56,324 nucleotides of DNA. Source: Clostridia bacterium. Lineage in GTDB: Bacteria; Bacillota; Clostridia; Christensenellales; Borkfalkiaceae. The stretch covers positions 1 to 56,324 of the forward strand of contig JAFTHW010000018.1 of NCBI GenBank assembly GCA_017457225.1, given 5' to 3'. The notes beneath the pieces are model-generated. The model was not told the DNA's origin. It did no database searches and saw only the letters and a program-made list of their open reading frames with translations. Below, piece by piece: positions 45,265 to 51,939 of the stretch (within the stretch, counting starts at the first letter, position 1; each line of letters starts with the position of its first letter). Both the position numbers and the translations under genes were made by a program.

Positions 45265-48200
45265 TCAGATTTCAAACGTACCTTCGTAAACGGTTTTTAC
45301 ACTACCGCTCAATTCCACGTCTCCATCCGAATGATAATTAACGGTCAAATCTCCGCCGCGAAGTTTTACGGTGACGTTGGTATCCTTTTCACAATATCCC
45401 GCAAGTACCGCCGCCACGACCGCCGCGCAAGCACCCGTACCGCAAGCCCAAGTCTCGCCGCTACCGCGTTCCCATACGCGCATTTTGATCGTTACTTTGT
45501 TCACGATGCGGATAAATTCCGTGTTAATCCCCTCGGGGAAATATTTGCATTCCTCAAATTCGGGTCCAACCTTTTTCACGTCGATTGCATCCACTTTATC
45601 GCTGAAAACAACGCAATGGGGATTTCCGACGTTGACGAGCGTGATCTTATACTCCGTCCCCGCGATATTGACGGGTTTCTCAACGATTTTTTCCTCTTTC
45701 CATACGCAGGGAATCTTTTCGCCGCGAAGCTCCGCCTTGCCGAGATTGACGCTGGCGCTGTTTACTTTTCCGCCGATGGAATATACTTTCGCCGCGCAAA
45801 CACCCGTGCCCGTTTCAATCATCATTTCTTTGGTTTTTACAATCCCTTTTTCGTAGAGGTATTTCGCCGCGCAACGAATCGCGTTACCGCCCGTAGGCGC
45901 TTCCGTACCGTCCTTATTAAACACGCGGATTTTTGCGTCTGCAATCTCAGAATTCTCGATCATCGCAATCCCGTCGCCGCCGATTCCGTAATGGGGAACG
46001 GCGTAGTTGACTGCAATGGATTCGGGACAGGTGATCTTTCCGTCGCGGTTATCCAATACGATGTAGTCGTTTCCGCAAGACTGCATTTTGGTAAAGTCGA
46101 GTTTCAATTTCTCGGTACGCAAATCGTTAATGTCTACGAGCTCGGTATTGTCTTCGGTGAAACGGCTGGCGATAATATCCGCAAGCGCGTTCGCCGTATC
46201 CAACGCCGTGAGAACGGTGATTCCGAGCAGGATTGCGTGGTGATGCAATTTAATGAAGTCGTTGATAGACTCCATATCCGTCTTACCCGTATAGACTACG
46301 TAATCGATTTTTCCCTCATCCATCAATTTTATAACCGTATCGGTTGCGGAAAGTCTATCCACCACCGTACAATCGATGCCAAGGTCGTTGATTACTTTCG
46401 CCGTACCTTTTGTTGCATACAGCGTACAACCCAGATCCCCGAACTTCTTCGCAATCGTCAAAAGATCCAGCTTGTCCTGATCATTGACGGTCATATAGAC
46501 GCCGACGGGACGGTTTGCGGACGGATGGCACATTTTAAAGCCCGCGGAAACGAGCCCCTTGAACATTGCCTCTTCCATCGTTTTACCGATGCCCAATACT
46601 TCGCCCGTGGATTTCATCTGAGGACCAAGCTGCGAGTTTACGTCGTTCAATTTTTCAAAACTGAACACGGGCACTTTGACCGCCACGTAAGGCGAAGAGG
46701 GATACAAGCCTGTACCGAATCCGAGCTTTTTCAGTTTCGCCCCCACGATAATTTTCGTTGCCAACTCTACCATAGGCACTCCCGTAACTTTGGAAATATA
46801 CGGTACGGTACGGGAAGCTCTGGGGTTTACCTCGATCACGTAAAGCTGACCGCGATAGATAAGATACTGAATATTAATCAAGCCTTTCGTCTTTAATTCG
46901 AGCGCAAGCTGTGTGGAAACTTCAATGATACGCTCGAGCATCGCATCGTCTAAATTGAACTGCGGGTATACGGCGATAGAGTCACCCGAGTGAATACCCG
47001 TACGCTCAATATGCTGCATAATGCCGGGAATTAAAACGTCCGTTCCGTCGGAGATCGCGTCGACCTCTAACTCCGTACCCATTAAATATTTATCGCAAAG
47101 CACGGGGTTTTCAATACCCTGCGCCAAAATGACGTCCATATACCGACAAACGTCTTCCTGCGTGAATGCAATCGTCATATTTTGTCCGCCAATTACGTAC
47201 GAGGGACGGAGCAGGACGGGATATTCCAATTTTTCCGCCGCCGCCAACGCTTCCTCTTTCGTCATAACCGTGATCGCTTTGGGTCTGGGAATGGAGTATT
47301 TCTCCAAAAGCGCTTCAAAACGCTCTCTGTCCTCCGCGCGGTCTACGCTGTCTGCGGACGTACCGAGAATACGGATCCCGTGCGTGGAAAAATACGCGCA
47401 GAGATTGATCGCCGTCTGACCGCCGAACGTAATGATCACGCCGTAAGGTTTTTCCACGTCGAGAACGTGCTGTACGTCCTCGGGAGTCAACGGCTCGAAA
47501 TACAAACGGTCTGCCGTATCAAAGTCGGTCGATACGGTTTCGGGATTGTTATTGATAATGACGACTTCGTAGCCCAGTTCTTTGAGCGTCCATACGCAAT
47601 GTACGGACGAGTAGTCGAATTCGATACCCTGACCGATACGAATCGGACCGGAGCCGATTACAACAATTCTCTTTTTCTTCGCTTTGTCTACGAACGGTTT
47701 TGCTTCGTCGTGCGCGTGATCGTCGAACGTCGAGTAGAAATACGGCGTTTTCGCAGGGAATTCCGCCGCGCAGGTATCTACCATTTTATACGCCACTTTC
47801 TTTCTGTAAGGGATCTTCTGTCCGCTCATCGTCTCGATGTCTTTGTCCAGATATCCCAATCTCTTACCCTCTTCGTACAAAGCTCTCGTCAACTTTTGCG
47901 TAGCCAACGCCTCTTCGTAAGCGATCAGGTTTTTAAACTTATTCAAGAACCAACGGTCGATTTTGGTAATATTAAATACTTCGTCTACCGAAACGCCTTT
48001 CTTGAGCGCCGCGTAGACGACGAAAATACGTTCGTCCGTCTTTTCGGGCAATTTTGCAATCAATTCCTCTTTCGTAGAGTGAATAAATTTCTTATAGTTG
48101 AACGTGCTCGTGGAAATTTCCGCGCCGCGAACCGCTTTCATCATCGCCATTTCAAACGACGTACCGATGGACATCACTTCGCCCGTCGCTTTCATCCTCG

Positions 48201-49320
48201 TGCCCAATTCTCTCTTTGCATACAAGAATTTATCGAACGGCCACTTGGGCATTTTAACAACCAAATAATCGATGGTCGGCTCGAAACAAGCGTACGTTTT
48301 GCCCGTAACGTCGTTCACGATCTCGTCCAACGTATAACCGAGCGCAATCTTCGTAGTCACTTTTGCAATCGGGAAGCCCGTTGCCTTAGAGGCAAGCGCC
48401 GACGAACGGCTGACGCGGGGATTTACCTCAATGACCGAATACTCAAAGGAATCGGGGTTGAGCGCGAACTGTACGTTACAGCCACCCTCTATGCCGAGTT
48501 CTGTAATAATCGAAAGCGCCGCCGTGCGGAGTATATTGTATTCTTTGGTAGAAAGCGTAACCGCAGGCGCTACGACGATGGAGTCGCCTGTATGAATACC
48601 GACGGGATCGACATTCTCCATCGAACATACGGTCAAAGCGTTGCCCGCCGCGTCGCGGAGTACTTCAAATTCGATCTCTTTCCAGCCTGCGATATATTTT
48701 TCAATCAAAACCTGCGTGATCGGCGAAAGCATCAAGCCGTTGTGCGAAATCAAGCGAAGCTCCTCTTCGTTATACGCTACGCCGCCGCCCGCGCCGCCGA
48801 GCGTGTACGCAGGACGAATGATGACGGGATATTGCAAGCGGTTCGCGATATTCACGCACTCCTCTACCGTATATGCGATGTCCGAAGGTACGCAAGGCTG
48901 AGAAATCTTTTCCATCGTTTCTTTGAACAGCTCTCTGTCCTCCGAACGATCGATCGCGTCCAGCTTCGTACCGATGAGTTTTACGCCGTGACGAGCAAGA
49001 AAGCCCGATTTTGCGAGCTTACAACCCATCGTTAAACCTGTTTGTCCACCCAAAGACGCCAACAAACTGTCGGGTTTTTCTTTGATAATGATACGCTTTA
49101 AGGACTCCTCGGTCAAAGGCTCGAGATAGATTTCATCCGCAAGCGCTTTATCCGTCATAATGGTTGCGGGGTTGGAGTTGCAGAGAACAACGTTTACACC
49201 CTCACTTTTCAATACGCGGCAAGCCTGCGCGCCTGCGTAGTCGAATTCCGCAGCTTGTCCGATGACAATCGGACCGGAGCCGATTACCAATACTTTTTTA
49301 ATATCACTTCTCTTAGGCAT
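45265..49320 (-). CDS. carB: CarB-DapF fusion: carbamoyl-phosphate synthase large subunit joined to a diaminopimelate epimerase domain
   Basis: One uninterrupted frame of 1351 codons. Residues about 1-1060 are a complete CPSase large subunit: GSGPIVIGQAAEFDYAG at the start, first ATP-grasp half with EVNPRVSRSSALASKATG near 300, second half beginning GSGPIRIGQGIEFDYSSVH near 555 with EVNPRASRTVPYISKVTG near 840, and an MGS-type allosteric domain to about 1060. After a short linker, residues about 1073-1351 are a full DapF fold: KMQSCGNDYIVLD (1078 on), GIGGDG, NVGNPHCVVF, INTEFI and the second catalytic Cys in ACGTGACA. The first DapF catalytic Cys (normally MCGN) reads TGGN, so epimerase activity is doubtful. 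It overlaps carA by 8 bases. Confidence 0.95.
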   Translation of the reverse strand: MPKRSDIKKVLVIGSGPIVIGQAAEFDYAGAQACRVLKSEGVNVVLCNSNPATIMTDKALADEIYLEPLTEESLKRIIIKEKPDSLLASLGGQTGLTMGCKLAKSGFLARHGVKLIGTKLDAIDRSEDRELFKETMEKISQPCVPSDIAYTVEECVNIANRLQYPVIIRPAYTLGGAGGGVAYNEEELRLISHNGLMLSPITQVLIEKYIAGWKEIEFEVLRDAAGNALTVCSMENVDPVGIHTGDSIVVAPAVTLSTKEYNILRTAALSIITELGIEGGCNVQFALNPDSFEYSVIEVNPRVSRSSALASKATGFPIAKVTTKIALGYTLDEIVNDVTGKTYACFEPTIDYLVVKMPKWPFDKFLYAKRELGTRMKATGEVMSIGTSFEMAMMKAVRGAEISTSTFNYKKFIHSTKEELIAKLPEKTDERIFVVYAALKKGVSVDEVFNITKIDRWFLNKFKNLIAYEEALATQKLTRALYEEGKRLGYLDKDIETMSGQKIPYRKKVAYKMVDTCAAEFPAKTPYFYSTFDDHAHDEAKPFVDKAKKKRIVVIGSGPIRIGQGIEFDYSSVHCVWTLKELGYEVVIINNNPETVSTDFDTADRLYFEPLTPEDVQHVLDVEKPYGVIITFGGQTAINLCAYFSTHGIRILGTSADSVDRAEDRERFEALLEKYSIPRPKAITVMTKEEALAAAEKLEYPVLLRPSYVIGGQNMTIAFTQEDVCRYMDVILAQGIENPVLCDKYLMGTELEVDAISDGTDVLIPGIMQHIERTGIHSGDSIAVYPQFNLDDAMLERIIEVSTQLALELKTKGLINIQYLIYRGQLYVIEVNPRASRTVPYISKVTGVPMVELATKIIVGAKLKKLGFGTGLYPSSPYVAVKVPVFSFEKLNDVNSQLGPQMKSTGEVLGIGKTMEEAMFKGLVSAGFKMCHPSANRPVGVYMTVNDQDKLDLLTIAKKFGDLGCTLYATKGTAKVINDLGIDCTVVDRLSATDTVIKLMDEGKIDYVVYTGKTDMESINDFIKLHHHAILLGITVLTALDTANALADIIASRFTEDNTELVDINDLRTEKLKLDFTKMQSCGNDYIVLDNRDGKITCPESIAVNYAVPHYGIGGDGIAMIENSEIADAKIRVFNKDGTEAPTGGNAIRCAAKYLYEKGIVKTKEMMIETGTGVCAAKVYSIGGKVNSASVNLGKAELRGEKIPCVWKEEKIVEKPVNIAGTEYKITLVNVGNPHCVVFSDKVDAIDVKKVGPEFEECKYFPEGINTEFIRIVNKVTIKMRVWERGSGETWACGTGACAAVVAAVLAGYCEKDTNVTVKLRGGDLTVNYHSDGDVELSGSVKTVYEGTFEI

Positions 49321-50392
49321 TTTTCTTCTCCTTTTCCATCATCGCAAAAAACTTTTTGTAGAAAGGATTTTCTTCCATTCCCACAAAGCAGGATTCGGGC
49401 GCAAATTGGAGGGTAAAGGCATTTTGCTCCTCGTACTCGATCCCCTCGCAGGTGTTGTCGTTTACATTCACGTAGCCGATCTTGCCTTTCGTTACCGTTT
49501 CGCTGATTACGACGTAACCGTGGTTTTGCGAAGAAATATAGACTTTCCCGCATTCCAAACACTTGACGGGTTGATTGCCGCCTCTGTGCCCGAATTTCAT
49601 CTTTTTCGTATCCGCGCCAAGCGCAAGCGCAACCAACTGGTGCCCAAGCCCTACGCCGAATACAGGTTTTTTACCGAGTAGTTTCTGCACTTCTGCGATC
49701 TGTTCGCTCCATTCTTTGGGATCTCCCGGTCCGTCGCTGATCATTACGCCGTCCGCGCCCGTTGCCAAAATCTCTTCCGCCGTCGAATCCGTCGGCATTT
49801 CCACAACCTTGCAACCCAAAGATACAAGCGTATTGACGGTACTCTTTTTGCCCCCAAGATTCCAGAGCGCTACCGTATAGTTCGCCCCGTCGTTTCCATA
49901 CGTCCGACTGTTTTTTACAGCGATCGCTTTCAGCGCGTCCTTTACCGAATATTCCGTAAGTTTCGCAATCTCGTCCGCGGACAATTTTTTCTGGCTGATA
50001 CGGGCGTTCATCACTCCCTTTTCACGCAAAATTCTTGTCAATTCGCGCGTGTCTACTCCGTAAACGCCGATGACGCCTTGTTCTTTGAGATAGGCATCCA
50101 AAGACTTTTCCGAGCGGAAATTGGAGGGAATTTCGCAGTATTCGCGAACGACGAATGCGGAAACCCAAGCTTGATTGCTCTCCGCGTCCTGTTCCGCTAC
50201 GCCGTAATTGCCGACGAGAGGAAACGTCTGCGCTACGATTTGCCCGAAATTCGAGGGATCGGTCAACGTTTCGACGTATCCTACCATATTCGTAGAAACG
50301 ACCATCTCGCCCGTGATTTCGCCTTCTGCGCCAAAGCGGTAGCCTTCAAATACAGCGCCGTTTTGTAACGTTAAATAAACTTTTTTCTTCAT
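49313..50392 (-). CDS. carA: Carbamoyl-phosphate synthase small subunit with a degenerate glutaminase site
   Basis: CarA normally hydrolyses glutamine and channels ammonia to CarB. The 359-residue protein has the full two-domain layout: CPSase small-chain domain (GYVETLTDPSNFGQIV near 38, GVYGVDTRELTR near 109) and a class I amidotransferase domain (DGPGDP near 218, SQNHGYVV near 290). But the nucleophile loop, normally GxCLGHQ, reads FGVGLGHQ (Cys to Gly, codon GGG), and the FHPE motif reads FAPE (His to Ala, codon GCG); only the Glu survives. Glutaminase activity is therefore not expected. AAAGGA precedes the ATG. Expressed from the promoter at 50644-50672 through a leader with an intrinsic terminator. 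Confidence 0.93.
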   Translation of the reverse strand: MKKKVYLTLQNGAVFEGYRFGAEGEITGEMVVSTNMVGYVETLTDPSNFGQIVAQTFPLVGNYGVAEQDAESNQAWVSAFVVREYCEIPSNFRSEKSLDAYLKEQGVIGVYGVDTRELTRILREKGVMNARISQKKLSADEIAKLTEYSVKDALKAIAVKNSRTYGNDGANYTVALWNLGGKKSTVNTLVSLGCKVVEMPTDSTAEEILATGADGVMISDGPGDPKEWSEQIAEVQKLLGKKPVFGVGLGHQLVALALGADTKKMKFGHRGGNQPVKCLECGKVYISSQNHGYVVISETVTKGKIGYVNVNDNTCEGIEYEEQNAFTLQFAPESCFVGMEENPFYKKFFAMMEKEKKNA

Positions 50393-50460: not shown

Positions 50461-50496
50461 GTAAAAAATAAGACTGATTCCGAAAATCAGTCCCCT
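50461..50496 (-). terminator. Intrinsic terminator inside the carA leader (possible attenuator)
   Basis: Perfect 8-bp stem GACTGATT/AATCAGTC (50472-50479 with 50485-50492) with a 5-base loop, followed on the minus strand by TTATTTTTTAC. It lies about 70 bases upstream of the carA start and downstream of the promoter, so transcription must read through it to express the operon. Confidence 0.75.
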
Positions 50497-50643: not shown

Positions 50644-50672
50644 ATTATAGCACAGTCGTTTTCGTTTGTCAA
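50644..50672 (-). promoter_or_regulatory. Promoter of the carA-carB::dapF-nifS-thiI operon
   Basis: TTGACA (50667-50672), 17-base spacer, TATAAT (50644-50649) with TG in the extended -10 position. It lies between the argJ stop and carA. Confidence 0.8.
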
Positions 50673-50718: not shown

Positions 50719-51939
50719 TTATTCCACCGTTTTTCTAAACAAAATCCGCCCGTATGCCATCGCCGAATAGTTCCCGCCGTTCAATCGCACGCGAACTTCC
50801 GCGAATCGATCGCCCAGCATTTTTTTCCAAGACTCCTCTGCAAACGAAAAAATCTGCCCGCCGTCGCAAAGAATGATTTCTTCCCCATCTGAGCACAGAG
50901 AAATCTGTATCTCTCCAACGTTTAATTTGGCATTCACACTCCCGATCGCACAAAGCAAGCTCTCCGCGTCTAAACGTCCTTTCGCGGTCACGCTTTTCAT
51001 TCCAATCGCTTCTATCACCCTTTTTGCTACCGCTCTTGCAGCCTGTTTAGATTTTGCGCCCGAAACGGAACAAACGACGCCCTTTTCCCCTTCCGCGCCG
51101 TTTTCTATACAGCGCAAACAGATCTCCGAAGCCAACGCGCTGAGCGCCGAACAAAATTTTCTGTATTCGGAGTCCTCTGTTTCAATTTTACAATTCCCCG
51201 CTTTTCCGTTTGCCATCATACAAACGGTGTCGTTCGGCGACGAGATCCCGTCCACCGAAAGCAAGTTAAACGTATCGTTTACAACCGTATTCAACGCCTT
51301 TTGCAGCATTTCTCTCGTAATATTCACGTCCGTCGTCAAAAAAACGAGGAACGTCGCCATATTCGGACATACGTGGCGGTTACCCTTAAAGACTCCACCT
51401 ATTTTACACGTAAAATTTCCCAACTCGAACGAATATGCGATTTCCTCCGCAACAGAATGTTCCGAGCCGAGCGTTTCCAATACGCCAGCCTCTTTTTCAG
51501 GCGTATCCCCCAAGCCCTCTACAAGAGAAGCTATTTTCTTTTCAAAAGCGGAAAAGGCAAGCCTTTCTCCGATCTTACCGGTAGAGGCAACAATCAACTC
51601 TTTAGGAGCGATTTGCGCGCGTTTCCCCACTTCTTTGCATAACGTTTCCGCCAAATTTTCGTCGAATACGTTGGCAACACCGCCGTTGAGCACAATCCCT
51701 TGTCCCAGCCCGCTTTTTAAATGTCCCTTTGACACGGTTACAGGCGCACCCACCCATTCGTTTTGGCTGTAAACACACACCGTAGGACAGCGCCGATCAG
51801 AGACGATCAAGGCAAAATCCCGCTCGCTTGCAGCGTTCTTTTTTAAACCGCAAGAAACGGCGTTTGCAAAAAATCCCGAAGGAGCGCAAACTCCTCCGGT
51901 AATTTCCGTCCATTTTCTATTCGAGCCTATTTTTTGCAC
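50719..51939 (-). CDS. argJ: Bifunctional ornithine acetyltransferase / N-acetylglutamate synthase
   Basis: Transfers acetyl from N-acetylornithine to glutamate in the cyclic arginine pathway. 406 residues. The Ntn-type precursor cleaves itself before a threonine; the site is visible as CPNMATFLVF (Ala-Thr bond near residue 198). Other marks: GGVCAPSGFFANAVSCGLK near 15, STGKIGERL near 120 (oxyanion region), VDGISSPNDTVCMMANG near 240. The start codon is GTG with GGAGG 5 bases upstream. The gene follows the thioesterase by 12 bases and precedes the carA promoter; arginine synthesis links it in pathway terms to carbamoyl phosphate, but the other arg genes are not here. Confidence 0.92.
   Translation of the reverse strand: MQKIGSNRKWTEITGGVCAPSGFFANAVSCGLKKNAASERDFALIVSDRRCPTVCVYSQNEWVGAPVTVSKGHLKSGLGQGIVLNGGVANVFDENLAETLCKEVGKRAQIAPKELIVASTGKIGERLAFSAFEKKIASLVEGLGDTPEKEAGVLETLGSEHSVAEEIAYSFELGNFTCKIGGVFKGNRHVCPNMATFLVFLTTDVNITREMLQKALNTVVNDTFNLLSVDGISSPNDTVCMMANGKAGNCKIETEDSEYRKFCSALSALASEICLRCIENGAEGEKGVVCSVSGAKSKQAARAVAKRVIEAIGMKSVTAKGRLDAESLLCAIGSVNAKLNVGEIQISLCSDGEEIILCDGGQIFSFAEESWKKMLGDRFAEVRVRLNGGNYSAMAYGRILFRKTVE

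Follow-up and report, generated by a model that had tools for sequence, protein, structure and literature searches.

How would a bacterium obtain nitrogen for carbamoyl phosphate when the small subunit of its carbamoyl-phosphate synthase (CPSase) lacks the residues that hydrolyse glutamine? The question is raised by a carA-carB locus on contig JAFTHW010000018.1 of Clostridia bacterium assembly GCA_017457225.1 (Borkfalkiaceae), of which the whole stretch of 56,324 nucleotides, here called the window, was analysed. An earlier note on this DNA had reported that CarA reads GVGLGHQ at the nucleophile site and FAPE at the catalytic histidine, with codons GGG and GCG; we confirmed both losses on the minus strand. 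An alignment with E. coli CarA (PDB chain 1c30_B, in which the nucleophile site itself reads ISLGHQ) agrees with this, equating Gly248 and Ala331 of the window protein with E. coli Cys269 and His353. We conclude that the loss of these residues is a lineage trait with a single origin in this genus and that CarAB is very probably an ammonia-dependent CPSase in which CarA has been kept as a structural or regulatory subunit.

The window CarA contains both the CPSase_sm_chain and the class I glutamine amidotransferase (GATase) domains of a small subunit, exceeds the curated cut-off of TIGR01368 among the NCBIfam profiles and has carB directly downstream (Table 1). Its reading frame is uninterrupted and shares 8 bases with the beginning of carB. 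Glu, the remaining member of the triad, which we take to be the counterpart of E. coli Glu355, is retained, so that of the Cys-His-Glu triad by which the small subunit of a CPS II is recognised, Cys has become Gly, His has become Ala and Glu is kept. Passages of a 2018 review describe Cys269 and His353 of E. coli CarA as essential (PMC6245113). Both ATP-grasp halves of CarB are present, as the earlier note had stated, and when its proposed search for a second, normal carA was run on the window genome, no other copy appeared at E ≤ 10. This genome (G000) is probably a metagenome assembly, of 1.38 Mb in 42 contigs, 92% complete and about 5% contaminated. It carries two carbamoyltransferase genes, read from sequence and neighbours as ArgF and PyrB, and with a single CarA one CPSase must therefore serve both arginine and pyrimidines, as far as the assembly shows.

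The same loss was found throughout most of the genus. A CarA match was obtained in 48 of 57 genus genomes and was lacking in nine; the genomes are incomplete to varying degrees, so all absence calls depend on completeness, and counts of a trait reflect shared descent, not separate events. The CarA type that adjoins a CarB-DapF fusion occurs in 45 of these genomes, four of which (G001, G002, G055 and G056) have Cys, His and Glu, while 41, including the window genome, lack the Cys, a distribution that is not attributable to chance or to an error in a single genome. The 41 lost copies (36 full or nearly full length and five fragments) have Gly at the Cys position in 37 cases, Asp in two, Glu in one and Ser in one, and the His is missing from all 40 that are readable at that position. 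As support for a lineage trait the earlier note had asked for a clade sharing Gly and Ala at the two sites: a clade does share the loss and Cys is nearly always replaced by Gly, but the replacement of His is not a fixed Ala, seven residues (A, V, T, D, M, S and N) being found in that column over 28 rows. In a CarA tree restricted to rows of 340 or more amino acids (65 rows), the 36 lost rows of the genus form one clade with support of 100/99, and in a CarB tree of 49 rows a branch with support of 100 parts 28 lost from 21 intact rows. The relatives include 'Candidatus Scatosoma pullicola' and Clostridia assemblies from roe deer rectum, sheep rectum and goat caecum; a source is stated for four lost-type relatives, which is too few to link host with trait.

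Loss of the nucleophile is rarer among the copies read from other genera. A family-wide search gave a CarA match in 202 of 301 genomes, and 20 copies from six other genera (g4, g7, g9, g10, g11 and g12), chosen among the matches listed, were read; g5, g6, g15 and g16, whose matches were mostly weaker, were not among the genera read. The triad is kept in 19 of these 20 copies, the exception being G075 (genus g4), which has Gly at the Cys position, retains His and has Ala at the Glu position. A divergent second CarA type is the only one present in three genomes of the window genus, with an intact triad in G003 and G054 and a lost one (Gly, Gln) in G034. In the CarA tree the copies of G075 (L143) and G034 (L088) represent separate Cys to Gly losses on long branches of 0.54 and 0.63, respectively.

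The earlier note had argued that such a loss is no recent accident. The 36 lost CarA frames have no early stop and encode 352-363 amino acids, with the exception of one of 342 amino acids that is cut by a contig end (G044). Stops within the matches of several CarA genes (among the full-length ones, G031, G019, G025 and G038) correspond to frames of 352-357 amino acids that end a few residues early. The idea that lost carA is a pseudogene was rejected for the lineage on the basis of the 41 genomes and of the frames free of early stops. We found that lost CarA remains under constraint and evolves faster relative to CarB. On the CarB topology, the protein tree length of the GATase part compared with that of CarB is 9.02 versus 1.79 for the 28 lost rows and 3.36 versus 1.94 for the 21 intact rows. 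In each set the median nonsynonymous divergence (dN) relative to CarB was taken over the 40 closest pairs, which share genomes and are not independent; it is 6.63 lost versus 1.89 intact for the GATase part (about 3.5 times faster), 6.25 versus 2.85 for the N-terminal part of CarA and 2.83 versus 2.34 for DapF. Median pairwise ratios of dN to synonymous divergence (dS) in lost CarA are well below 1 (0.138 for the N-terminal part and 0.164 for the GATase part) and show no clear difference from intact CarA (0.179 and 0.144); as dS is close to saturation and the intact rows come from several genera, dN/dS alone shows no relaxation, hence the use of the ratio to CarB.

Individual positions also point to constraint. 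Of the 65 rows of the CarA tree, 36 have Gly at the nucleophile, encoded by GGG in 23, GGT in six, GGC in four and GGA in three, and with all four codons in use Gly itself appears to be held; we infer that it is favoured because it relaxes the strained, tight turn at the nucleophile. Val37 and Ser184 are found in all 28 lost CarA rows and are absent from the 21 intact rows. In CarB, a conserved protein with 625 of 1050 alignment columns invariant among 49 family members, 14 of the 17 changes that separate the lost set fall within residues 1-550, compared with 31 of 71 such changes across five control clades (Fisher p 0.006, a comparison that is not fully independent as the halves were chosen after the list was known). 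The fixed changes include positions 237, 268, 316, 322, 323, 353 and 357. This half of CarB is described, in parts of the same review, as holding the carboxyphosphate site and the contact with CarA (PMC6245113).

The proposal of the earlier note that this is an ammonia-using CPSase with a retained CarA gains indirect support from the same genomes, in which other glutaminases are disabled or missing. PurF in the four intact genomes has a propeptide followed by CysGlyValPheGly (Cys in 4/4), whereas in all 37 CarA-lost genomes in which it was read it starts MetAlaVal(Phe/Leu)Gly, with neither propeptide nor Cys; the same start is seen in seven genomes without a CarA match. No PurF match was obtained in the remaining four CarA-lost genomes, the window genome among them. 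Of 17 aligned PurF sequences from lost genomes, 16 have DGK, DGA or DGG in place of the NGN motif. An upstream start that would restore the Cys is unlikely, as many genomes have a stop a few codons before the Met; in G039 a Cys codon lies just before the Met, yet no in-frame start codon precedes it. In E. coli PurF, replacement of Cys1 by Ala or Ser is reported, in the portion of the source available, to abolish the use of glutamine and spare that of ammonia (PMC3261824).

GuaA shows a comparable pattern. All 34 uncut frames in lost genomes are 326-352 amino acids long (three more were cut and four genomes gave no match; 19 of the 34 were read as sequence), which is too short to hold a glutaminase domain, compared with 518-593 amino acids in the three intact genomes where GuaA was found. 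The window genome encodes a GuaA of 325 amino acids downstream of a guaB-like frame. The CTP synthase PyrG is present in 4/4 intact genomes and in only two of the 41 lost ones (G052 and G053); it was not found in the other 39, seven of which are relatives at least 93% complete, and no search was made for a replacement. NadE in the 41 lost genomes is short in 32 (245-327 amino acids, one cut), long in four and not found in five, and is long in 4/4 intact genomes. From frame lengths only, we take the short form to be ammonia-using and the long form glutamine-using. The long NadE of G016, G025, G030 and G041, in which CarA and PurF are altered, indicates that NadE changed separately. In many lost genomes the short NadE gene lies close to a glutamine synthetase-like gene of about 700-750 amino acids, presumably of type III (G000:C31 20837-23161 in the window genome), a neighbour that may bear on how the short NadE arrived. 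We also noted that G034, which lost its CarA residues separately, has a GuaA frame of only 331 amino acids and an intact-looking PyrG.

Our best reading is that the CPSase change is part of a move from glutamine to ammonia in this lineage. It is fairly likely that CarAB, PurF, GuaA and NadE have become ammonia-only by different routes, namely a point change at the nucleophile, removal of the N-terminal Cys together with the propeptide and absence of the glutaminase part, with HisH, PurL and perhaps a few others keeping glutamine and with ammonia as an obligate nutrient; the nitrogen of carbamoyl phosphate, purines, GMP and NAD would then come directly from environmental ammonia. For the CPSase, judging from sequence, we infer that ammonia is the substrate and that CarA has a structural or regulatory role. 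CarB would take up diffusing free NH3 instead of ammonia delivered from glutamine and convert it to carbamate and then carbamoyl phosphate, which would feed both ArgF and PyrB, and CarA, no longer hydrolysing glutamine, would be retained for stabilising, sealing or regulating CarB. The ruminant hindgut is rich in ammonia. Formation of carbamoyl phosphate from ammonia by E. coli CarB is described in passages of PMC6245113, and another path for ammonia has been proposed for CPS1, and perhaps for E. coli CPS, in the text seen of PMC4655335.

Several observations weigh against this account. The same review passages state that the E. coli CPSase requires very high levels of ammonia (PMC6245113). 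Cys and His are retained in HisH-like genes wherever these were read (13/13 lost and 2/2 intact genomes), PurL keeps its catalytic residues in 8/8 lost and 3/3 intact genomes read, and 52 of 57 genus genomes, G000 included, have a glutamine synthetase-like match, so that glutamine is still made and used. Given the usual roles of the HisH and PurL motifs, their retention indicates that glutaminase loss is selective and not general decay. On the same counts, loss of glutamine synthetase as the driver and complete abandonment of glutamine were both rejected. A further GATase-like frame of 224-243 amino acids is found in four lost genomes (G015, G037, G044 and G045). With about 55% identity between the short GuaA and the corresponding region of the intact enzyme, the gene may have been replaced rather than truncated. 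CarB frames are interrupted in the assemblies of G020, G031 and G045. Finally, G052 and G053, the two lost genomes with PyrG, have an intact divergent CarA in addition to the lost one; that of G053 shares a contig with PyrG, and such contigs may be foreign. Intact glutamine enzymes were seen on G052:C38, G050:C14 and G053:C33 in otherwise lost-type assemblies, among them an additional long GuaA in G050 (contig C14) and in G052 (contig C38), and possibly reflect contamination.

The conservation of the glutamine pocket is also adverse, since a purely structural CarA would not need it, and it makes a glutamine sensor the main rival explanation. CarA would then bind glutamine without hydrolysing it and gate an ammonia-using CarB according to nitrogen status. 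In keeping with this, Lys182 (27/28), Gly221 (28/28), Gly223 (26/28), Asn290 (28/28), Gly292 (27/28) and Gln252 (23/28), to which we assign roles at the glutamine site of the E. coli enzyme, persist in the lost rows, and the newly fixed Val37 and Ser184 resemble the mark of a new constrained role. Ser47, which we assume to contact glutamine, is however kept in just 10 of 28 lost rows, and the GATase part is the fastest-evolving relative to CarB; we regard a sensor as unlikely, albeit ahead of the other alternatives. Somewhat less probable still is that CarA is decaying slowly towards loss while CarB works alone. Its accelerated evolution and the seven residues in the His column would fit such a process, but 36 frames without an early stop, a dN/dS of about 0.15, a nucleophile Gly held with four codons in use and the retention of the N-terminal domain would not. 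A third explanation, that another glutaminase docks on CarB and supplies NH3, leaving the enzyme glutamine-fed, could draw on the intact HisH and PurL and on the additional GATase-like frame of four relatives. We consider it very improbable, as the window genome yielded no class I GATase genes besides CarA and HisH, the docking site still has CarA to fill it, and the same loss in PurF and GuaA would require several docking partners. Assembly or sequencing error in the window genome, which its 42 contigs and contamination might suggest, is refuted for the lineage by the absence of the Cys from 41 genomes and by four matching public contigs from roe deer, sheep and goat.

The ammonia-dependent CPSase proposed here is best compared with vertebrate CPS I, the precedent invoked in the earlier note. 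Human CPS1 has Ser in place of the nucleophile Cys and makes no use of glutamine, according to the portion of PMC4655335 available, and the vertebrate enzyme (PDB 5dot/5dou) is likewise an ammonia-using CPSase whose glutaminase-like domain is retained but inactive. Bullfrog CPS I is described as retaining the triad in the sections seen of PMC7657897, and nucleophile loss is thus not universal in CPS I. The window enzyme has the glutaminase domain without nucleophile Cys of a CPS I, but not its single chain, carA and carB being separate genes. Whereas CPS1 is one fused chain, activated by N-acetylglutamate and engaged in urea synthesis, the window CarAB consists of two subunits, is presumably biosynthetic, has Gly for Cys, has lost the His as well and carries a C-terminal DapF-like domain. 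Our best reading of the sequences is that CarAB works like vertebrate CPS I and arose separately in a two-subunit bacterial enzyme. E. coli CarAB (PDB 1bxr, 1c30 and 1jdb) shares the two-subunit architecture and is clearly homologous in both subunits, but its physiological donor is glutamine, which the 2018 review, in the passages seen, takes as the donor for all bacterial CPSases (PMC6245113). The small CPS of Methanobrevibacter smithii is likewise an unusual CPS of a gut microbe, but is described in the available part of its report as a protein of 41 kDa that acts as a dimer and stands for the two synthetase domains (PMC6022934), as opposed to the full CarB and CarA found here. The CPS III/I of Alcolapia fish and frogs have made an independent shift from glutamine towards ammonia; in Alcolapia and two frogs, the sections seen of PMC7657897 indicate, the triad is kept and glutamine-binding residues are changed, in contrast to the loss of nucleophile and His in the present lineage.

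No earlier description of such a bacterial CPSase was recognised in the literature searched, which was covered mostly at title and abstract level and included few subscription journals. The kind of event is known from vertebrates, and the bacterial case is apparently undescribed in that literature. It is likely to be a bacterial equivalent of CPS I that arose in nature, and with intact sister species for comparison it could show how an ammonia CPSase evolves, what roles CarA has beyond glutamine hydrolysis and how CarB adapts. What surprises most is that unrelated glutaminase folds have undergone parallel loss within a single lineage, and together the changes in PurF, GuaA and NadE resemble a genome-level switch in nitrogen economy. 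Uncultured gut bacteria of this group probably make arginine and nucleotides with nitrogen taken directly from free ammonia, which would offer a concrete molecular explanation for a possible dependence of some gut bacteria on it. These genes are probably misannotated as 'glutamine-hydrolyzing'.

The C-terminus of CarB bears a DapF (diaminopimelate epimerase) domain, giving a protein of 1351 amino acids (45265-49320, minus strand), and the fusion is present wherever a CarB frame of this type was followed to its end. We take a functional DapF to require two catalytic Cys; in the CarB-borne domain the first is Gly and the second is kept in ACGTG. The first Cys is absent from all fused copies read, in this genus and in other genera, and the other genera read have the same fusion and missing Cys though their CarA is mostly intact. 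A separate DapF elsewhere in the window genome has both Cys. The CarB-borne domain is, on these motifs, a conserved pseudo-epimerase.

Table 1. Features of the carA-carB locus, in window coordinates.
Feature	Position	Strand	Evidence or motif
DapF (diaminopimelate epimerase) domain at the CarB C-terminus	45265..46125	-	TIGR00652 2.9e-74
Gly replacing the first catalytic Cys of the DapF domain	45889..45891	-	TGGNAIRC instead of xCGNxxRC
CarB part (residues 1-1065), both ATP-grasp halves	46126..49320	-	PRK05294 E=0, TIGR01369 E=0, PF02786 two stretches
carA, CPSase small subunit, 359 amino acids, incomplete glutaminase triad	49313..50392	-	PRK12838 1.4e-119, TIGR01368 8.6e-113, PF00988 1.7e-49, PF00117 2.6e-34
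Codon GCG, Ala331, replacing catalytic His (E. coli His353)	49400..49402	-	LQFAPES
Codon GGG, Gly248, replacing nucleophile Cys (E. coli Cys269)	49649..49651	-	FGVGLGHQ
Terminator-like hairpin in the carA leader	50470..50494	-	2 found in stretch, shuffles mean 0.6
Promoter-like site upstream of carA	50644..50672	-	TTGACA-17-TATAAT, 12/12 match
argJ homologue upstream of carA, arginine gene context	50719..51939	-	TIGR00120 1.7e-66, PF01960

The promoter-like site was the only one found in the scan and, with a mean of 1.0 site of at least 9/12 in shuffled sequences, only its exactness is notable. Together with the hairpins of the carA leader it possibly indicates attenuation control; no Rfam match was obtained in the leader at the gathering score. 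The ArgJ homologue upstream scores 225 bits, under the 298-bit cut-off of TIGR00120, and reads KGNRHVCPNMAT at the position where KGSGMIxPNMAT would be expected; its activity may be altered.

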